Origin: Psychromonas sp. B3M02
GTDB taxonomy: Bacteria > Pseudomonadota > Gammaproteobacteria > Enterobacterales > Psychromonadaceae
DNA length: 55,344 nucleotides
Assembly (NCBI RefSeq): GCF_003318165.1
Contig: NZ_QOCB01000147.1
Coordinates: 1-55,344 of the forward strand
Reading direction: 5' to 3'
Of this stretch, positions 3,291 to 24,269 are shown in pieces. A model generated the notes under the pieces. The model searched no databases. It was given only the letters and a program-made list of their open reading frames with translations, and was not told where the DNA came from. Numbering within the stretch: position 1 is the stretch's first letter; every line of letters begins with the position of its first letter. The position numbers and the translations under genes are program-made.

Positions 3291-4765
3291 TGAAGGTGTC
3301 CCTTTATCAACGCATGACTCTAGCTTTAGTACTGCTGTTTATTGCCATCACCTGTGTAGTTTCTTGGTGGACTAAGACTTTAGAAAAAAGCTCTCATCAC
3401 GAAGCGGAGCAGCGTCTTCATCTAGAACTTGCTGAACATTTAGGTCACGATAACCCATTATTAAAAGAGGGGGTTTATGACAAAGGTGCGCTTAAAAACC
3501 TGTTTCATAGCTTAATGATTTTAGGGCCTAGTTTTGAATTTTATTTTATTTCTCCAAGTGGCCAATTAGTTAGCTACTCTGCTGAAAAGAGTGCAATAAA
3601 GCGCCAACAGATTAATGTGGCACCCTTAGTGGATTTTATCAATCGTAAAAAATCATTGCCTATTTATGGTGATGATCCTCGTGATAGTAATCAGCAGAAA
3701 ATATTCTCTGCGGCACCTATTTATAACGATGAAAACCTACAAGGGTATTTATATGTGATCATTGGAGGTCAAGCCTATGACTCCGCTTTTGCTGATGTAG
3801 AGTCTGATTTACTGCGCTCGCAATCGGTTATTTTTATATTAGCTGTGGTGGTCGCTTTCTTTTTAGTATCGATCATCTTATTACGTATTTTAACTAATCC
3901 TTTAAAACAGTTGACCAATAATATCCGTGCTTTTAAAAAAGCCGGATTTGAAAAGAACAAAGTAGAGTTGCAACAGTGGCCTGCTGCAAAACATAACGAG
4001 ATCCATGAACTCGGTGATGCTTTTAATGAGATGGCTGAACAAATTAATTATCAATTTGTACAACTGCAATCCATTGATAAAACCAGAAGAGAGATGTTAA
4101 CGGATCTTTCTCACGACTTACGTACACCCTTGGCGGCTTTACAAGGTTACTTAGAAACCATTAAGTTACGTGGTGATGCTTTAGATAAAGAGCAACATCT
4201 GCGCTTTATTGACATAGCGTTTAAAAATGCCAATCAATTAAAAAAGCTGGTGGATCAAATTTTTGAATTAGCACATCTAGATGGTGGGCAGGTTACCTTA
4301 CAATTGGAAACCTTCCCGTTACCTGAGTTGTTGCATGACATTGTGGCTAAGTTTCAACATCGTTTGCAAGATAAACAATTGAAGCTAAACATTGCCCCTG
4401 AGCATTGTGATTATATGGTGTACACGGATATTGGTAAATTGGAGCGAGTGTTAAGTAACTTGATTGATAATGCCATTCGTCATAGTCATCAGGGCGGTTG
4501 TATCAGTATTGCAGTGAACGAAGAGGATAACAACAAGTTACATCTTACGCTCAGCGATAATGGAACTGGGATTCATGAGCATGAATTAGCTTATATCTTT
4601 GATGCACGTTACCGTGCAAGTAATGCCATCTTCGATAAAAAAGAACATGGTGGTTTAGGGTTAGCAATCACCCAAAAGTTATTACGTTTATTACACTCTG
4701 AGATTCGTGTAGAAAGCCAAATCGGCAAAGGTACTTCTTTTCATTTTTGCCTAAACAGAAGCTAA
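3290..4765 (+). CDS. Membrane sensor histidine kinase
   Basis: A 491-residue kinase partner of the overlapping regulator gene. Transmembrane segment 1 is about residues 9-27 and segment 2 about 183-203, bounding a periplasmic sensor of some 155 residues with no recognised domain. A HAMP linker follows, then HisKA with phospho-accepting His275 in DLSHDLRTPLAALQGY, and a HATPase_c domain with N (LSNLIDNAIRHS), G1 (LSDNGTGI) and G2 (HGGLGLAI) boxes. The signal is unknown. Possible ligands include something bound by the co-encoded spondin proteins, but this is speculation from neighbourhood only. Confidence 0.88.
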   Translation: MKVSLYQRMTLALVLLFIAITCVVSWWTKTLEKSSHHEAEQRLHLELAEHLGHDNPLLKEGVYDKGALKNLFHSLMILGPSFEFYFISPSGQLVSYSAEKSAIKRQQINVAPLVDFINRKKSLPIYGDDPRDSNQQKIFSAAPIYNDENLQGYLYVIIGGQAYDSAFADVESDLLRSQSVIFILAVVVAFFLVSIILLRILTNPLKQLTNNIRAFKKAGFEKNKVELQQWPAAKHNEIHELGDAFNEMAEQINYQFVQLQSIDKTRREMLTDLSHDLRTPLAALQGYLETIKLRGDALDKEQHLRFIDIAFKNANQLKKLVDQIFELAHLDGGQVTLQLETFPLPELLHDIVAKFQHRLQDKQLKLNIAPEHCDYMVYTDIGKLERVLSNLIDNAIRHSHQGGCISIAVNEEDNNKLHLTLSDNGTGIHEHELAYIFDARYRASNAIFDKKEHGGLGLAITQKLLRLLHSEIRVESQIGKGTSFHFCLNRS

Positions 4766-4845: not shown

Positions 4846-6168
4846 TTACTTAACACGAACATTTTCATTGAAGTGCTCAATGGCTTCAACCACTCGTGTT
4901 GCACCATTTTGTATATCTTCCATAGTGATACCAGCTTCTGTTGAAAACTCTAAAGCATTGCTTACTTCTCTTTTACATTGGTCTATTAAACTCACAGCCT
5001 CTGCCATTTGTTGCACGTTATCGTTGACCACTTTACTGATCTCTTCAGTGGTGGTGTTGGTGCGTGAGGCTAGGCTTCTTACTTCATCTGCAACCACTGC
5101 AAAACCACGGCCTTGTTCACCAGCTCGAGCCGCTTCAATCGCAGCATTAAGTGCTAATAAATTAGTTTGTTCTGCAATGCCTTTTACACTGCCTGCTAGG
5201 TTACTAATATGTTCTGAATGCACATTTAAAAACTTAATGTTTTCACTGACTTTTTCCATTTGCTCCGTTAACTGCTGCATACCATTGATGGTATCTTGAA
5301 TAATGCCTTTACACTTCTCCGATTGATCCTGTGTTTCACCTGAGACTTGGTGAGCTATTTGTGAGGCTTCAATGGCGGCTTGTTCCTGCTCTATTTGTGA
5401 GGTAATTAAGGTCGCAAATTTAATGATTTTATAGAGTTCACCACGGTCATTATGAATTGGATTATAGGACGCTTCTAACCAGATTTCTCGACCACCACTA
5501 TCAATGCGTTTAAAGCGGTTAGAGACCGCTTCACCACTGCCTAGTTTTTCCCAGAATAGACGGTACTCATCAGTGCTTGTTTCTGCAGGGTCACAGAACA
5601 TACGGTGATGCTGCCCTTGAATCTCATCTAGGCGATAACCCATGCCTTGTAAAAAGTTACTGTTGGCTGTGATCACTTCGCCGGTAGGTGTAAACTCAAT
5701 AGTAGACATAGAGCGATTTATAGCCGCTAATGTGTCTTGTTGTTGACGTGAGTGTTCGATAGTACGTGTTAATTCAGTACAGAAAACCACAAATGAAGCT
5801 AAATTATTTTGCTCATCTACAATCGGTTCAATTATGGATCTAAGCCAAGTCAATTCCCCATTGCTTTTATCTGCTTGCACGGCGCCGTGCCAACTATTAC
5901 CTGAGAGTAATGCTGCTTTTAAAGCCTTAAAATGGGCTGTATCTCGGTAGTGTTCTGGTACCATTTCTGTGAAATGTTTGCCTTCAATGTCATTGATCTT
6001 GAAACCTAACTCCGTTTCTGTCATATCGTTGATAGCTGTTATCTTCCCGCTTTTATCCAACTCAAAATGAATCATATCTTCTTTAAGGCTTTGGCCAACC
6101 TGTTTAAGAATAAATAGTTCGTCCTGAAGTTTTTTATTTTCTTCCTTTAATGCTTTGCTCTTAAACAT
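4846..6168 (-). CDS. Soluble methyl-accepting chemotaxis protein with two PAS domains (BdlA-like)
   Basis: A 440-residue cytoplasmic chemoreceptor. Residues 1-30 are a basic coiled coil, PAS1 spans about 30-140 (ITAINDMTETELGF, HGAVQADKSNGELTWL), PAS2 about 150-260 (ITANSNFLQGMGYRLDEIQG, HRMFCDP), and the signalling hairpin about 280-440 carries the CheA/CheW-binding tip GIAEQTNLLALNAAIEAARA. No transmembrane segment is visible. The layout equals that of Pseudomonas BdlA (biofilm dispersal) and Aer-like sensors, in which PAS domains bind haem or FAD; which cofactor applies here is unknown. The second helix after the tip is short, as in BdlA. Single gene, convergent with the kinase. Confidence 0.85.
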   Translation of the reverse strand: MFKSKALKEENKKLQDELFILKQVGQSLKEDMIHFELDKSGKITAINDMTETELGFKINDIEGKHFTEMVPEHYRDTAHFKALKAALLSGNSWHGAVQADKSNGELTWLRSIIEPIVDEQNNLASFVVFCTELTRTIEHSRQQQDTLAAINRSMSTIEFTPTGEVITANSNFLQGMGYRLDEIQGQHHRMFCDPAETSTDEYRLFWEKLGSGEAVSNRFKRIDSGGREIWLEASYNPIHNDRGELYKIIKFATLITSQIEQEQAAIEASQIAHQVSGETQDQSEKCKGIIQDTINGMQQLTEQMEKVSENIKFLNVHSEHISNLAGSVKGIAEQTNLLALNAAIEAARAGEQGRGFAVVADEVRSLASRTNTTTEEISKVVNDNVQQMAEAVSLIDQCKREVSNALEFSTEAGITMEDIQNGATRVVEAIEHFNENVRVK

Positions 6169-6300
6169 GTACTTGCTCTCTAAAAAGTTGTTTATAAAAA
6201 ATACATTATGGATAAGAGTGTAGTTAATTTAAGTAAAAAGTGGTAATTAAATGATGATTAATTAGTGTTTTAGAGGGGGAATAAATGAATTTATTTAAAA

Positions 6301-6829
6301 GATAGCTTCCATCTCTTTTGTGTTTTCATCGCGTACGTAATTTCTTTACTTTATAACAGACACAAAAAAGCCAAGCTAAATGTTTGGCTTAAAATCTTTA
6401 AGTTTATCTAAAAATATTAGTTAGATGCTTCAACGATAGTTTTCATCTCTTTCGTGTTTTCATCACGTACGTAATTTCTTTACTTTTATAACAGATATAA
6501 AAAAGCCAAGCTAAATGCTTGGCTTATAATATCTTAAAGCTAATTAACTAAAAATTAGTTAGATGCTTCAACGGTAGTTTTCATATCTTTCGTGTTTTCA
6601 TCACGTACGTAATTTCTTTACTTTATAACAGATATAAAAAAAGCCAAGCTAAATGCTTGGCTTATAATATCTTAAAGCTAATTAACTAAAAATTAGTTAG
6701 ATGCTTCAACGATAGCTTCCATCTCTTTTGTATTTTCATCGCGTACGTAATTTCTTTACTTTATAACAGATATAAAAAAGCCAAGCTAAATGCTTGGCTT
6801 ATAATATCTTAAAGCTAATTAACTAAAAA
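6301..6829 (-). repeat. Tandem array of the ilvC 3' end plus terminator, four units
   Basis: Three full units (6417-6554, 6555-6692, 6693-6829; 138, 138 and 137 bp) and one partial, more diverged unit (6301-6416) follow ilvC directly. Read on the minus strand, each unit holds a terminator hairpin (AAGCCAAGC with GCTTGGCTT) and then a degenerate copy of the last 40-60 bp of ilvC ending IVEASN-stop or a variant. The first 37 bases of each copy match the true ilvC end closely, after which a small insertion and shifts break the frame. Units differ from one another at several positions. No ORF of note runs through the array. Confidence 0.9.
6772..6800 (-). terminator. ilvC terminator (first of four repeated copies)
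   Basis: Minus-strand hairpin AAGCCAAGC (from 6800 down to 6792) and GCTTGGCTT (6786-6778) with a 5-base loop, followed by a T run. Equivalent hairpins recur in each unit of the 6301-6829 array, near 6370, 6500 and 6640. Confidence 0.85.
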
Positions 6830-8314
6830 TTAGTTAGATGCTTCAACGATTGTTTTCATATCTTTCATGTAACCGCGTAGTTTCTTACCTACGATTTCTA
6901 CTGGGTGGTTACGAATCTCTTCGTTGATTTCGATTAAGCGAGCGTTATCAACAGAGTTAGATTTAACTGTTAATGCTTTACCTAGGAACTCAGGGTTCAT
7001 TGCTTTAACGAAGTCTGCAAGTAGTGGTTTTGCAGCGTGGTCAAATAGGTAACAACCGTACTCAGCTGTATCAGAGATAACAACGTTCATTTCGTAAAGT
7101 TTCTTACGAGCGATGGTGTTAGCGATTAGTGGCGTTTCATGAAGAGACTCGTAGTATGCAGACTCTTCGATGATACCTGATGCAGTCATTGCTTCAAATG
7201 CAAGTTCAACACCTGCTTTGATCATTGCTACTAGGAAGATACCGTGGTCGTAGAACTCTTGCTCATCGATTTCCATGTCACCAGCTGGTTGTTTTTCAAA
7301 ACCAGTTTCAGCTGTTGCTGCACGCCATTTAAGTAGGTTAACGTCATCGTTAGCCCAGTCAGCCATCATAGTTGCAGAGAATTCACCTTCAATGATGTCA
7401 TCCATGTGCTTGTTGAATAGCGGACGTAGGATATCTTTAAGTTCTAAAGACATATCGAATGCTTTGATTTTAGCAGGGTTAGATAGACGATCCATCATGT
7501 TAGTGATACCGCCGTATTTAAGACCTTCAGTTACAGTTTCCCAACCGTATTGAATTAGTTTTGAAGCGTATGCTGGCTCAAGGCCGTCAGCAACCATTTT
7601 TTCAAAACCTAAGATTGCGCCAGTTTGTAACATACCACATAAGATAGTTTGCTCACCCATTAGGTCAGATTTAACTTCAGCAACAAAAGAAGACATAAGA
7701 ACACCAGCACGGTCACCACCAGTAGCAGATGCGTATGCTTTAGCCCATGCTAAACCGTGGTTTTGTGGGTCATTTGCAGGGTGAACAGCGATTAGTGTTG
7801 GTACACCGAAACCACGTTTGTATTCTTCACGTACTTCAGAACCAGGACATTTAGGTGCACACATGATAACAGTGATATCTTCACGTACTTGCATACCTTC
7901 TTCAACGATGTTGAAACCGTGAGAGTAAGCTAGTGTAGAACCTTCTTTCATTAATGGCATTACTGCACCAACAACCGCTGTGTGTTGTTTGTCAGGAGTT
8001 AGGTTACATAGTAAGTCAGCTTGTGGAATTAGCTCTTCGTAAGTACCAACTGTGAAACCATTTTCAGTTGCATTTTTCCAAGATTGACGTTTTTCAGCGA
8101 TTGCTTCAGCACGTAATGTGTAAGAAACGTCAAGACCTGAGTCACGCATGTTAAGACCTTGGTTAAGACCTTGCGCACCACAACCGATGATAACTACTTT
8201 TTTGCCTTTTAATGCTTCACAACCGTCAGCAAATTCGCTGCGATCCATAAAACGACATTGACCTAGTTGATGTAACTTCTCACGTAGAGGAAGAGTATTA
8301 AAGTAGTTAGCCAT
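6830..8314 (-). CDS. ilvC: Ketol-acid reductoisomerase (class II)
   Basis: A 494-residue NADPH- and Mg-dependent enzyme of valine, leucine and isoleucine synthesis, converting acetolactate or acetohydroxybutyrate to the dihydroxy acids. Length marks the long class II form (E. coli 491). The Rossmann loop [21 protein letters not shown] is near residue 40, and the C-terminal half contains the duplicated knotted domain with the Mg-binding D/E residues ([24 protein letters not shown]). An upstream CGGAG sets the start. It diverges from sseA-ilvY, and IlvY is the expected activator responding to substrate. The 3' end is reiterated downstream (6301-6829). Confidence 0.97.
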
Positions 8315-8399
8315 GTTAGCTGCACTCCGAAATAAATTAATAGGGGAAATGACATTTTAATAAGGGGTCATTTGAATTCGGGAGTCACTATAACGCATA

Positions 8400-8480
8400 T
8401 CGAGTATTGCGCAAAATGATATATTAGCAATGTTACGTTGCGTTAAATGAAATGATACAATGGCAGTATTGCATTTAGTG
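8400..8480. promoter_or_regulatory. Candidate IlvY operator region between ilvC and sseA-ilvY
   Basis: The 302-bp divergent gap contains ATTGC and GCAAT in inverted orientation (about 8406-8431), a further TTGCG near 8438 and ATTGC near 8470. LysR-family IlvY in E. coli binds paired operators in the equivalent ilvC-ilvY gap. The sites were picked by eye and no exact consensus is claimed. Confidence 0.3.
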
Positions 8481-8616
8481 AAGTGAATCTTACTTTTATC
8501 ATACAAATGTGAGCATCACGATATCATGAAGGTTATTTTGCGATTATGATGTATTTTTTAATGGTCCACTTACTATTGTCTTTATTTGTTAACTTATTGT
8601 ATAAAAAGGAGTTTAT

Positions 8617-9498
8617 ATGCCTTCACTGGTGTTGCCAGGAGAGTTAGTCTCTAGCCAATGGTTAGCAGAACATAGAGACCACCCCGATTTAATCTTGCTA
8701 GATGCCAGTTGGCACATGCCATTAACGCAACGTAACGGTTATCAAGAATGGTTAAATGAACGTATCGATAACGCGCAATTTTTTGATTTTGATCGTGAAG
8801 TTTGTGATCAAGAGTCAGCTTTTCCACATATGATGCCTACCCCACAACATTTTGAATTATCTGCTCAGCTACTAGGTATCAACAATAATAGCGTGATTGT
8901 GGTTTATGATAGTTTAGGGATTTTCTCTAGTCCGCGTGTTTGGTGGATGTTTAAAACCATGGGCTTCAACCATGTGGCAGTATTAGATGGTGGTTTACCT
9001 GCATGGAAAGAGGCGGGGTTACCTTTGAATATTCAACCACCACAAAAAGTAGCTCATCAAGGAGATTTTAAAGCGGTTTATCATGCCGACTTAATCAGTG
9101 ATACCGAGCAAGTTGTTGATGCTATAAAAGATAAACAAGTAGCAATCATTGATGCGAGAGCAAGAAATCGCTTTTTAGGGGAAGTACCTGAGGCACGTAA
9201 AGGGTTGCGATCTGGTCATATGCCAACGGCAATTAATTTACCGATCAGCGAAGTGTTACATAACCAAACCATGAAAAATGCCTATCAACTAGCACAAATA
9301 TTTGAAGCATTAATGCCACAAAAACAGCGCATGGTATTTAGTTGTGGTTCAGGTGTAACTGCCTGCATTCTTGCCTTAGCGGCTAAGTTAGCGGGGTACG
9401 ATGCATTAAGTGTTTATGATGGATCCTGGAGCGAGTGGGGCGCGAATCAAACCCTGCCTGTAGTACAATCAAAACAAAGTACTAGTCATGGACACTAA
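8617..9498 (+). CDS. sseA: 3-mercaptopyruvate sulfurtransferase
   Basis: A 293-residue tandem-rhodanese enzyme that moves sulfur from 3-mercaptopyruvate to thiols or cyanide. Two rhodanese domains are visible: an inactive first one (residues 8-140, GYQEWLNERIDNAQFFD, VVYDSLGIFSSPRVWWMF) and an active second with the catalytic loop CGSGVTAC, Cys243. This loop is the mercaptopyruvate type rather than the thiosulfate type. AAAAGGAG precedes the ATG. Its end overlaps ilvY by 11 bp, so the two are co-transcribed, which places a sulfur enzyme inside the classical ilvC/ilvY divergon. Confidence 0.92.
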   Translation: MPSLVLPGELVSSQWLAEHRDHPDLILLDASWHMPLTQRNGYQEWLNERIDNAQFFDFDREVCDQESAFPHMMPTPQHFELSAQLLGINNNSVIVVYDSLGIFSSPRVWWMFKTMGFNHVAVLDGGLPAWKEAGLPLNIQPPQKVAHQGDFKAVYHADLISDTEQVVDAIKDKQVAIIDARARNRFLGEVPEARKGLRSGHMPTAINLPISEVLHNQTMKNAYQLAQIFEALMPQKQRMVFSCGSGVTACILALAAKLAGYDALSVYDGSWSEWGANQTLPVVQSKQSTSHGH

Positions 9499-11144: not shown

Positions 11145-11174
11145 AAAAAAACCAAGCTATTAGCTTGGTTTTTT
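11145..11174. terminator. Intrinsic terminator after the DUF2750 gene
   Basis: Stem AAAAAACCAAGCTA with TAGCTTGGTTTTTT; the A and T tracts make it usable from both strands. Confidence 0.85.
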
Positions 11175-11203
11175 TATATCAGCGATAGTAATAATCGATA
11201 TTA

Positions 11204-11363
11204 TACCAATTGTATTAAATAACTGATCTAAATTTTGCGCCGGAAAAATGGCTTAGTTTGAGGCGTAAGTTGATGTAAATGGTTGTTCCCTATACGAAAC
11301 TTACAACGAAAAAATAAGTTGTTTTAACAAGTAAAATAGATCAGTTACTTACTATGATTGGTA
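11204..11363. mobile_element. 160-bp MITE, complete copy
   Basis: A non-coding element bounded by TACCAAT and ATTGGTA, with imperfect terminal inverted repeats of about 27 bp (TACCAATTGTATTAAATAAC on the left; the right end inverted reads TACCAATCATAGTAAGTAAC; both continue into TGATCTA). A copy at 55126-55284 in the opposite orientation differs only at one base and by one A in a homopolymer, so both moved or duplicated recently. Flanks are TTA/TA-like, fitting a TA target. It encodes no transposase. Its right end supplies part of the rraB stop codon region (stop 11364-11366). Confidence 0.85.
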
Positions 11364-11729
11364 TTACTCTTCTGGGTAAGTGCCCCAGCCGTCGTAATCG
11401 ATACCAAAAGATTGTGCTAATGTCAGTAGTCTTTCCACATCTTCATAAATCGCTTCTTCATCAAGATTCATTTCAACTACCACGTCAAAACTTAAAATGA
11501 TTGAACCATCTTCTAACTCTAATTCTTCTGGGTCGGTTACTTCATAACCCTTTTTAAAACACGCAACAGCGGCTTTCTCTAGGACATCAAAGTTGTCGCA
11601 AGAAAGGTGGTGTTCGATCATATAAATTGCATCTGGGTTACTACCATCTTCCAACACGGCTTCTACAATATCGGCAGTCTCTTCAGCAAACTCGGCTAAT
11701 AGCTCTTCAAATGTAAGTTCTTCTGACAT
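11364..11729 (-). CDS. rraB: Ribonuclease E inhibitor RraB
   Basis: A 121-residue, very acidic protein matching RraB, which binds RNase E and alters mRNA decay. Typical stretches are FAEETADIVEAVLEDGSNPDAIY, IEHHLSCDNFDVLEKAAV and the end FGIDYDGWGTYPEE. The stop codon sits exactly at the border of a MITE, so the element inserted at or just after the gene end without removing visible conserved sequence. The ATG is preceded by an AAGAGAT site. It lies 75 bp downstream of plsC on the same strand. Confidence 0.9.
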   Translation of the reverse strand: MSEELTFEELLAEFAEETADIVEAVLEDGSNPDAIYMIEHHLSCDNFDVLEKAAVACFKKGYEVTDPEELELEDGSIILSFDVVVEMNLDEEAIYEDVERLLTLAQSFGIDYDGWGTYPEE

Positions 11730-23925: not shown

Positions 23926-24269
23926 TTTGTTACCTAACAATTCTTACTTAACTACACTTACCTAACAATACAATCATTGAATTTAATTTTTTAACCAATG
24001 CCTGAATTCACCCACACAATTTCAATCATTGCTTTTGCAATAAAGCCAATACAACTCAAAATCACTACTTAACTGATTATAGCTAATGCTGTTAAGTCAG
24101 TGCCGAATATCCCAATTTAATTGATTACTGGGATTATTCTTACAACCTTATTTTAACTGTTTTAAAAATGTATACACGCTCGTTTCTACTCACCCATAAA
24201 CACTGCCGGAACTGTGTTCAACATATAATACAACCTAAGGTGATAACACCTTTACGTTAATTATAGTAG

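Follow-up and report, generated by a model that had tools for sequence, protein, structure and literature searches.

The window analyzed here is a 55,344-nt stretch from Psychromonas sp. B3M02, whose genome assembly holds 3.86 Mb in 156 contigs, the window being contig 120 among them. On the minus strand of this window lies ilvC, and directly behind it follow repeat units, head to tail and with no cargo between them, each running from a spacer through an intrinsic terminator to a tail that copies the ilvC 3′ end. Over the 55 kb, TRF placed the array at 6301-6870 (period 138, 4.2 copies, 91% matches, score 938), and its remaining rows were the same array at a period of 275 and a 42-bp repeat at 23930. 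With the unit borders set at stop codons on the minus strand, the locus contains the following features:

6830..8314, minus strand: ilvC, ketol-acid reductoisomerase, source of the repeated 3′ end (ORF; Pfam KARI_N and KARI_C)
6693..6829, minus strand: unit 1, 137 bp, with spacer, terminator T1 and tail 1
6778..6800, minus strand: terminator hairpin T1 (terminator scan)
6693..6759, minus strand: tail 1, ilvC-end copy with the ending EMEAIVEASN
6555..6692, minus strand: unit 2, 138 bp
6641..6663, minus strand: terminator hairpin T2 (terminator scan)
6555..6621, minus strand: tail 2, ilvC-end copy with the ending DMKTTVEASN
6417..6554, minus strand: unit 3, 138 bp
6503..6525, minus strand: terminator hairpin T3 (terminator scan)
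6417..6483, minus strand: tail 3, ilvC-end copy
6295..6416, minus strand: unit 4, diverged and truncated
6368..6390, minus strand: terminator hairpin T4, with one broken pair
6295..6349, minus strand: tail 4, truncated, with the ending EMEAIF
4846..6168, minus strand: next gene downstream, with PAS and MCP-signal domains (ORF, Pfam)

The first-pass annotation had described the ilvC 3′ end and its terminator as tandemly repeated, in three units plus a partial one. The tandem repeat is real, as the TRF array and the units of 137, 138 and 138 bp with a diverged last one demonstrate. The description needs amending in that T1 belongs to ilvC, that everything lies on the minus strand and that the partial unit reaches approximately 6295. 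Since the first terminator is ilvC's own, the locus holds four terminators and four tails, three of them full and one truncated. The alignment of the units that had been proposed gave 94-97% identity among units 1-3, each of which ends in an ilvC 3′-end copy with an insert, and 77-81% between these and the truncated unit 4. The spacer is the same throughout units 1-3; their terminator segments share 95-98% identity and their tails 90-97%. The tails are a mosaic that can be seen directly, with the GAGATGGAAGCTATC form in tails 1 and 4 and an ATGAAAACTA form in tails 2 and 3.

The ilvC gene is present in 23 of the 24 genus genomes, of which 10 carry tails behind the gene, 9 carry none, 1 is ambiguous and 3 are unresolved, the loci of G007, G013 and G023 being cut short by contig ends, MITE-like sequence or IS. 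Tail copies with a score of 33 or more were found in G000, G001, G008, G009, G012, G014, G015, G016 and G020, with the contigs of G015 and G016 ending inside the array. The tenth carrier, G003, has a degenerate tail (reached by 0/200 shuffles) and a good tail beyond an MCP gene. The ambiguous case is G019, whose array is a composite that combines terminators with a REP-like block; a 15-nt repeat of the gene's end scored 30 there (2/200 shuffles). At this sensitivity, no tail was detected in G002, G005, G006, G010, G011, G017, G018, G021 and G022. These tail-less species were additionally searched for remnants with nine queries each against 400 nt, with 200 shuffles each, and the resulting values are uncorrected for the nine queries. 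The lowest values came from two species: a candidate in G006 was reached by 1/200 shuffles and lies in the coding region of the next gene, a better-placed match there was reached by 7/200, and a candidate in G002 by 3/200; we claim none of them.

A change in unit number behind ilvC among relatives had been proposed as a check on the array, and sister species on the ilvC tree do differ: G000 has four units and G018 none, and G012 has three units, compared with one degenerate tail and one tail beyond the MCP gene in G003. On this quick tree (first 1410 nt, SH-aLRT support only, with G019 counted as a carrier and without G007, G013 and G023), the presence and absence of tails needs at least 5 changes. 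In G003 (L101, 1333-3169), the PAS/MCP gene stands between the degenerate and the good tail and is followed by a convergent MarC gene. It is 73% identical to the MCP gene of the window, which comes after the whole array and adjoins a sensor kinase gene with no MarC gene between them. Recombination between tails that flank a gene could delete that gene.

Such copies are exceptional among gene ends. For 319 of 321 long ORFs, the final 63 nt were compared with the 1 kb that follows, using the window and 20 further stretches (362 kb of three genus genomes), with ORFs picked by length and unannotated. The ilvC of the window scored 67 and the other 318 gene ends at most 31, and only the former reached the score of the weakest tail case in the genus. 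The best control match (score 31, stretch L162 of G012) was rejected as a gene-end copy, being a short internal repeat well past the gene's terminator-like hairpin. Outside the genus, a search of 197 genomes, genus members among them, returned ilvC loci for 18 order relatives, of which 0 beat their own shuffles or reached the score of the weakest tail case in the genus. Of 79 further ilvC loci outside the genus, 0 reached a score of 33; the 80th locus of that set is Psychromonas RZ22 itself, and four loci had under 1000 nt downstream. Three of the 79 beat all 100 shuffles (L084, score 31; L068, 27; L066, 23.5), which is not far from chance for 79 tests. The shuffles behind the tail scores of gene ends, order relatives, outside loci and remnants were single-base, a milder control than dinucleotide shuffling. 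L084, from Colwellia chukchiensis, has a possible short ilvC-end copy at approximately 4641-4668, 155 nt past the stop codon and beyond a hairpin with a T run; this uncertain copy is the sole one of the three near the gene.

Within its own 3.86-Mb genome, the array matched itself and one weak 32-bp terminator-like place, and thus does not behave as a dispersed repeat. At 11149-11180 the window has a terminator-like sequence, AAAAAACCAAGCTATTAGCTTGGTTTTTT, which is 88% identical over 32 bp to the array's terminator. The pattern GCTTGGCTTTTTTGTRTCTG occurs six times in 5 of the 24 genomes. We considered a mobile terminator cassette carrying it and rejected this reading: five of the places are at ilvC, and the sixth (contig C27 of G020) was read as the far side of an ilvC array broken by an IS. 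A plasmid search gave no match.

The tails carry an insert that the gene does not have. Measuring the stretch between two shared anchors, which was possible in 20 of 25 tail matches, we found 17 nt in all 23 genus ilvC genes and 23 nt or more in tails. Genus-wide, the insert is +6 to +10 nt in 19 of the 20 tails and +17 nt in one, and so one old duplication is likely. It is in frame in 5 of the 20 tails and measures 7 nt in the window's genome; no frame is kept, and we rejected the tails as translated sequence. These observations speak against the suggestion of the first-pass annotation that the array is a recombination reservoir that swaps the C-terminus of IlvC. The window's tails do vary in their residues (EMEAI, DMKTT, EMKTI), and within a species the gene end and the array are alike, both of which would suit such swapping. 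However, 0/23 genus ilvC genes have the tail insert, the 22 Psychromonas IlvC proteins (the window's included, the outlier G011 excepted) all read KKLRGYM(K/T)(D/E)MK near their end, and the in-frame minority of inserts points the same way. In the window's genome, the 7-nt insert means that a longer swap would break the frame. We therefore regard a C-terminus reservoir as hardly credible.

The tails resemble the ilvC gene of their own species. For 20 tails of 10 species, the observed match to the own ilvC from insert to stop was reached by 1/2000 species-label shuffles, a value uncorrected for relatedness; one chance G012 match, three composite G009 units and the degenerate G003 tail had been dropped before this count. 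The own ilvC ranked first for 11 of the 20 tails, ties included, and at the Lys/Thr codon of IlvC, 19 of the 20 are by eye of their own gene's type, tail 4 of G014 being the exception. The first 75 nt of unit 4 are 87% identical to the ilvC 3′ UTR of G020, compared with 81% to unit 1 of the same array. The distal unit has thus retained an older 3′ UTR, as would fit an oldest copy at the outer edge of the array. Likeness to the own species, together with a distal unit nearer to G020, is the pattern of unequal exchange and gene conversion. The earlier proposal of unequal crossing-over or slippage thus gains support, since sister species differ in copy number and the copies follow their own ilvC end.

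We consider it likely that the array is an old tandem duplication that has been resized and homogenised by recombination, that its terminators were carried along and that no function is needed to explain it. In the putative mechanism, an ancestor inside Psychromonas would have duplicated approximately the last 57 nt of ilvC together with its 3′ UTR and terminator, and this old duplication would be the seed. Homologous recombination or slippage among the copies and the gene's own end would keep changing the unit number, and the same exchange would rewrite the unit ends to match the resident ilvC. In the predicted folds of units 1-3, the spacer pairs with the unit's tail end, and such spacer-tail inverted repeats might favour slippage. 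Selection on IlvC would keep the tail insert out of the gene, and the terminators, carried along, may add redundancy. The array, its distribution over the genus, the differing unit numbers, the resemblance to the own ilvC and the older distal unit are observed; the single origin, recombination as the agent and near-neutrality are what we infer from these patterns. The at least five changes on the ilvC tree weigh against a single origin. Near-neutrality, in turn, must be set against the conservation of the terminator stem: RNAalifold on 19 aligned units recovered a stem of 9 pairs, kept in 169 of 171 cells and broken in 2, which selection would also give. The alignment left out the later units with damage in G019 and G009, unit 3 of G016 and those on far contigs in G015 and G020.

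Terminator redundancy is the main rival reading. The first-pass annotation had proposed a terminator battery; under selection, such a battery would curb transcription that runs on from a highly expressed ilvC into the gene behind it. As expected of intrinsic terminators, T1-T3 have G+C-rich stems of nine pairs with a T run behind each, and a terminator scan found all three (0.2 expected in shuffles), missing T4 with its broken pair. In 6 of the 19 units, both partners of one stem pair are altered and pairing is preserved. In G014, the first terminator has a broken pair and the next three are intact. However, 9 of the 23 species show no tail copy, and G019 and G009 have damaged terminators in their later units. 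Moreover, among the tail-less species, the next gene lies on the same strand in G018 and is convergent in G022 and G005, so in the few species looked at the unit number does not plainly follow the downstream gene. Selection for a battery is therefore not demonstrated, and we give it a small, though real, probability. A related reading, to which we likewise assign little probability, is that selection keeps the array as a self-renewing back-up, in which exchange with the ilvC end would restore intact terminators and so buffer the loss of one stop signal. Examples of such loss are the broken pair in G014 and the IS insertions in G007, G009, G020 and G023.

It is improbable that the array yields small RNAs processed from the ilvC 3′ UTR, each of them stopping at a terminator. 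Compared with dinucleotide shuffles, units 1-3 have more stable predicted folds (z = -3.2, -4.4 and -4.4), and the tyrV array of E. coli is annotated with a small RNA, rttR. The folding scores probably owe much to the terminator, and against this reading stand the z of only -1.6 for unit 4 and the RNAalifold result, in which no conserved structure besides the terminator stem appeared across the 19 units. No sigma-70-like promoter was found in 6150-6900, and at a permissive threshold Rfam gave 11 rows for 5800-9000, all under their families' gathering scores. We also weighed whether the units are remains of repeated mobile-element integration at the ilvC 3′ end, that is, att sites. Gene 3′ ends are common integration sites, and the MCP gene of G003 sits between a degenerate tail and a further one. 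However, the repeat includes the terminator and stands head to tail without cargo, and no integrase was noticed in the printed ORF starts of 13 downstream stretches, which were read rather than searched. We rate this origin as very improbable. Because the tails do not hold a frame, and neither a promoter-like site nor an RNA family at the cut-off was found, we hold that the array is mostly a by-product.

The closest parallel is the tyrT-tyrV/rttR locus of E. coli, a head-to-tail array behind a gene, with units that end in a copy of the gene's 3′ end. Tested likewise, the tyrV/rttR array has a 178-bp unit in 3.1 copies, and the tRNA-Tyr end occurs in it three times as an exact 19-nt copy. The E. 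coli array stands behind a tRNA gene and has rttR and tpr annotated inside, and rtT RNA and Tpr have been studied. In contrast, the Psychromonas array stands behind a protein gene, with no evident gene in its units. These units also include an intrinsic terminator. From this comparison, the Psychromonas array looks like a protein-gene counterpart of tyrV/rttR with a terminator in each unit. In intergenic VNTRs, the unit number varies among relatives and units are alike within a genome, and the same is true here. Unlike an ordinary VNTR, the Psychromonas unit derives from the end of the gene next to it, with which, in many species of the genus, it seems to trade sequence. REP/BIME sequences are short intergenic repeats with hairpins, and the array shares with them short hairpin-bearing repeats between genes, although, unlike them, it is not dispersed in its own genome. 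A literature search, short of full texts, found no publication on the Psychromonas ilvC array. In many Psychromonas species, the end of ilvC, a biosynthesis gene, and the non-coding array behind it seem to evolve jointly, which makes the locus a clear natural example where the turnover of the array, the length of conversion tracts and the redundancy of terminators could be measured.

The array terminators are also targets of a transposon. In four species, terminators of the ilvC array contain IS ends that read AATGCCG(A/T)TC(A/G)GTTAAG, exactly or with one base different:

L095, L096, L107, L133, L137 and L139: IS-hit ilvC arrays of G020, G009, G007 and G023

More generally, intrinsic terminator hairpins are preferred sites of an IS4-family element whose ends resemble AATGCCGWTCRGTTAAG (flanks L190-L209). 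The 20 loci read, out of 119 IS ends found in six genomes, gave 20 distinct flanks, of which two belong to the same insertion. In 15 of these 20 flanks, at least five consecutive A occur within 27 nt, compared with 8.5% of random 27-mers, and many flanks show the first hairpin arm by eye. The transposase of the G019 copy is of the IS4 type (Nterm_IS4, DDE_Tnp_1). A search of the window's own genome for the IS-end pattern, allowing one mismatch, found no copy. The hits on array terminators in four species connect the targeting of the transposon with the structure of terminators. In G019 and G009, a REP-like block (TTTTGACTTTGGGGCGCTGGCTTTAGCCTGCAG...) recurs along with the array terminators, and it also occurs repeatedly in G020 (L105, L096, L107, L133). 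Finally, at 11200-11365 the window has, by eye, a MITE-like sequence with ends near TATACCAATTGTATTAAATAACTGATC and GATCAGTTACTTACTATGATTGGTATT, and a sequence similar to it was seen by eye behind the ilvC terminator in G007.
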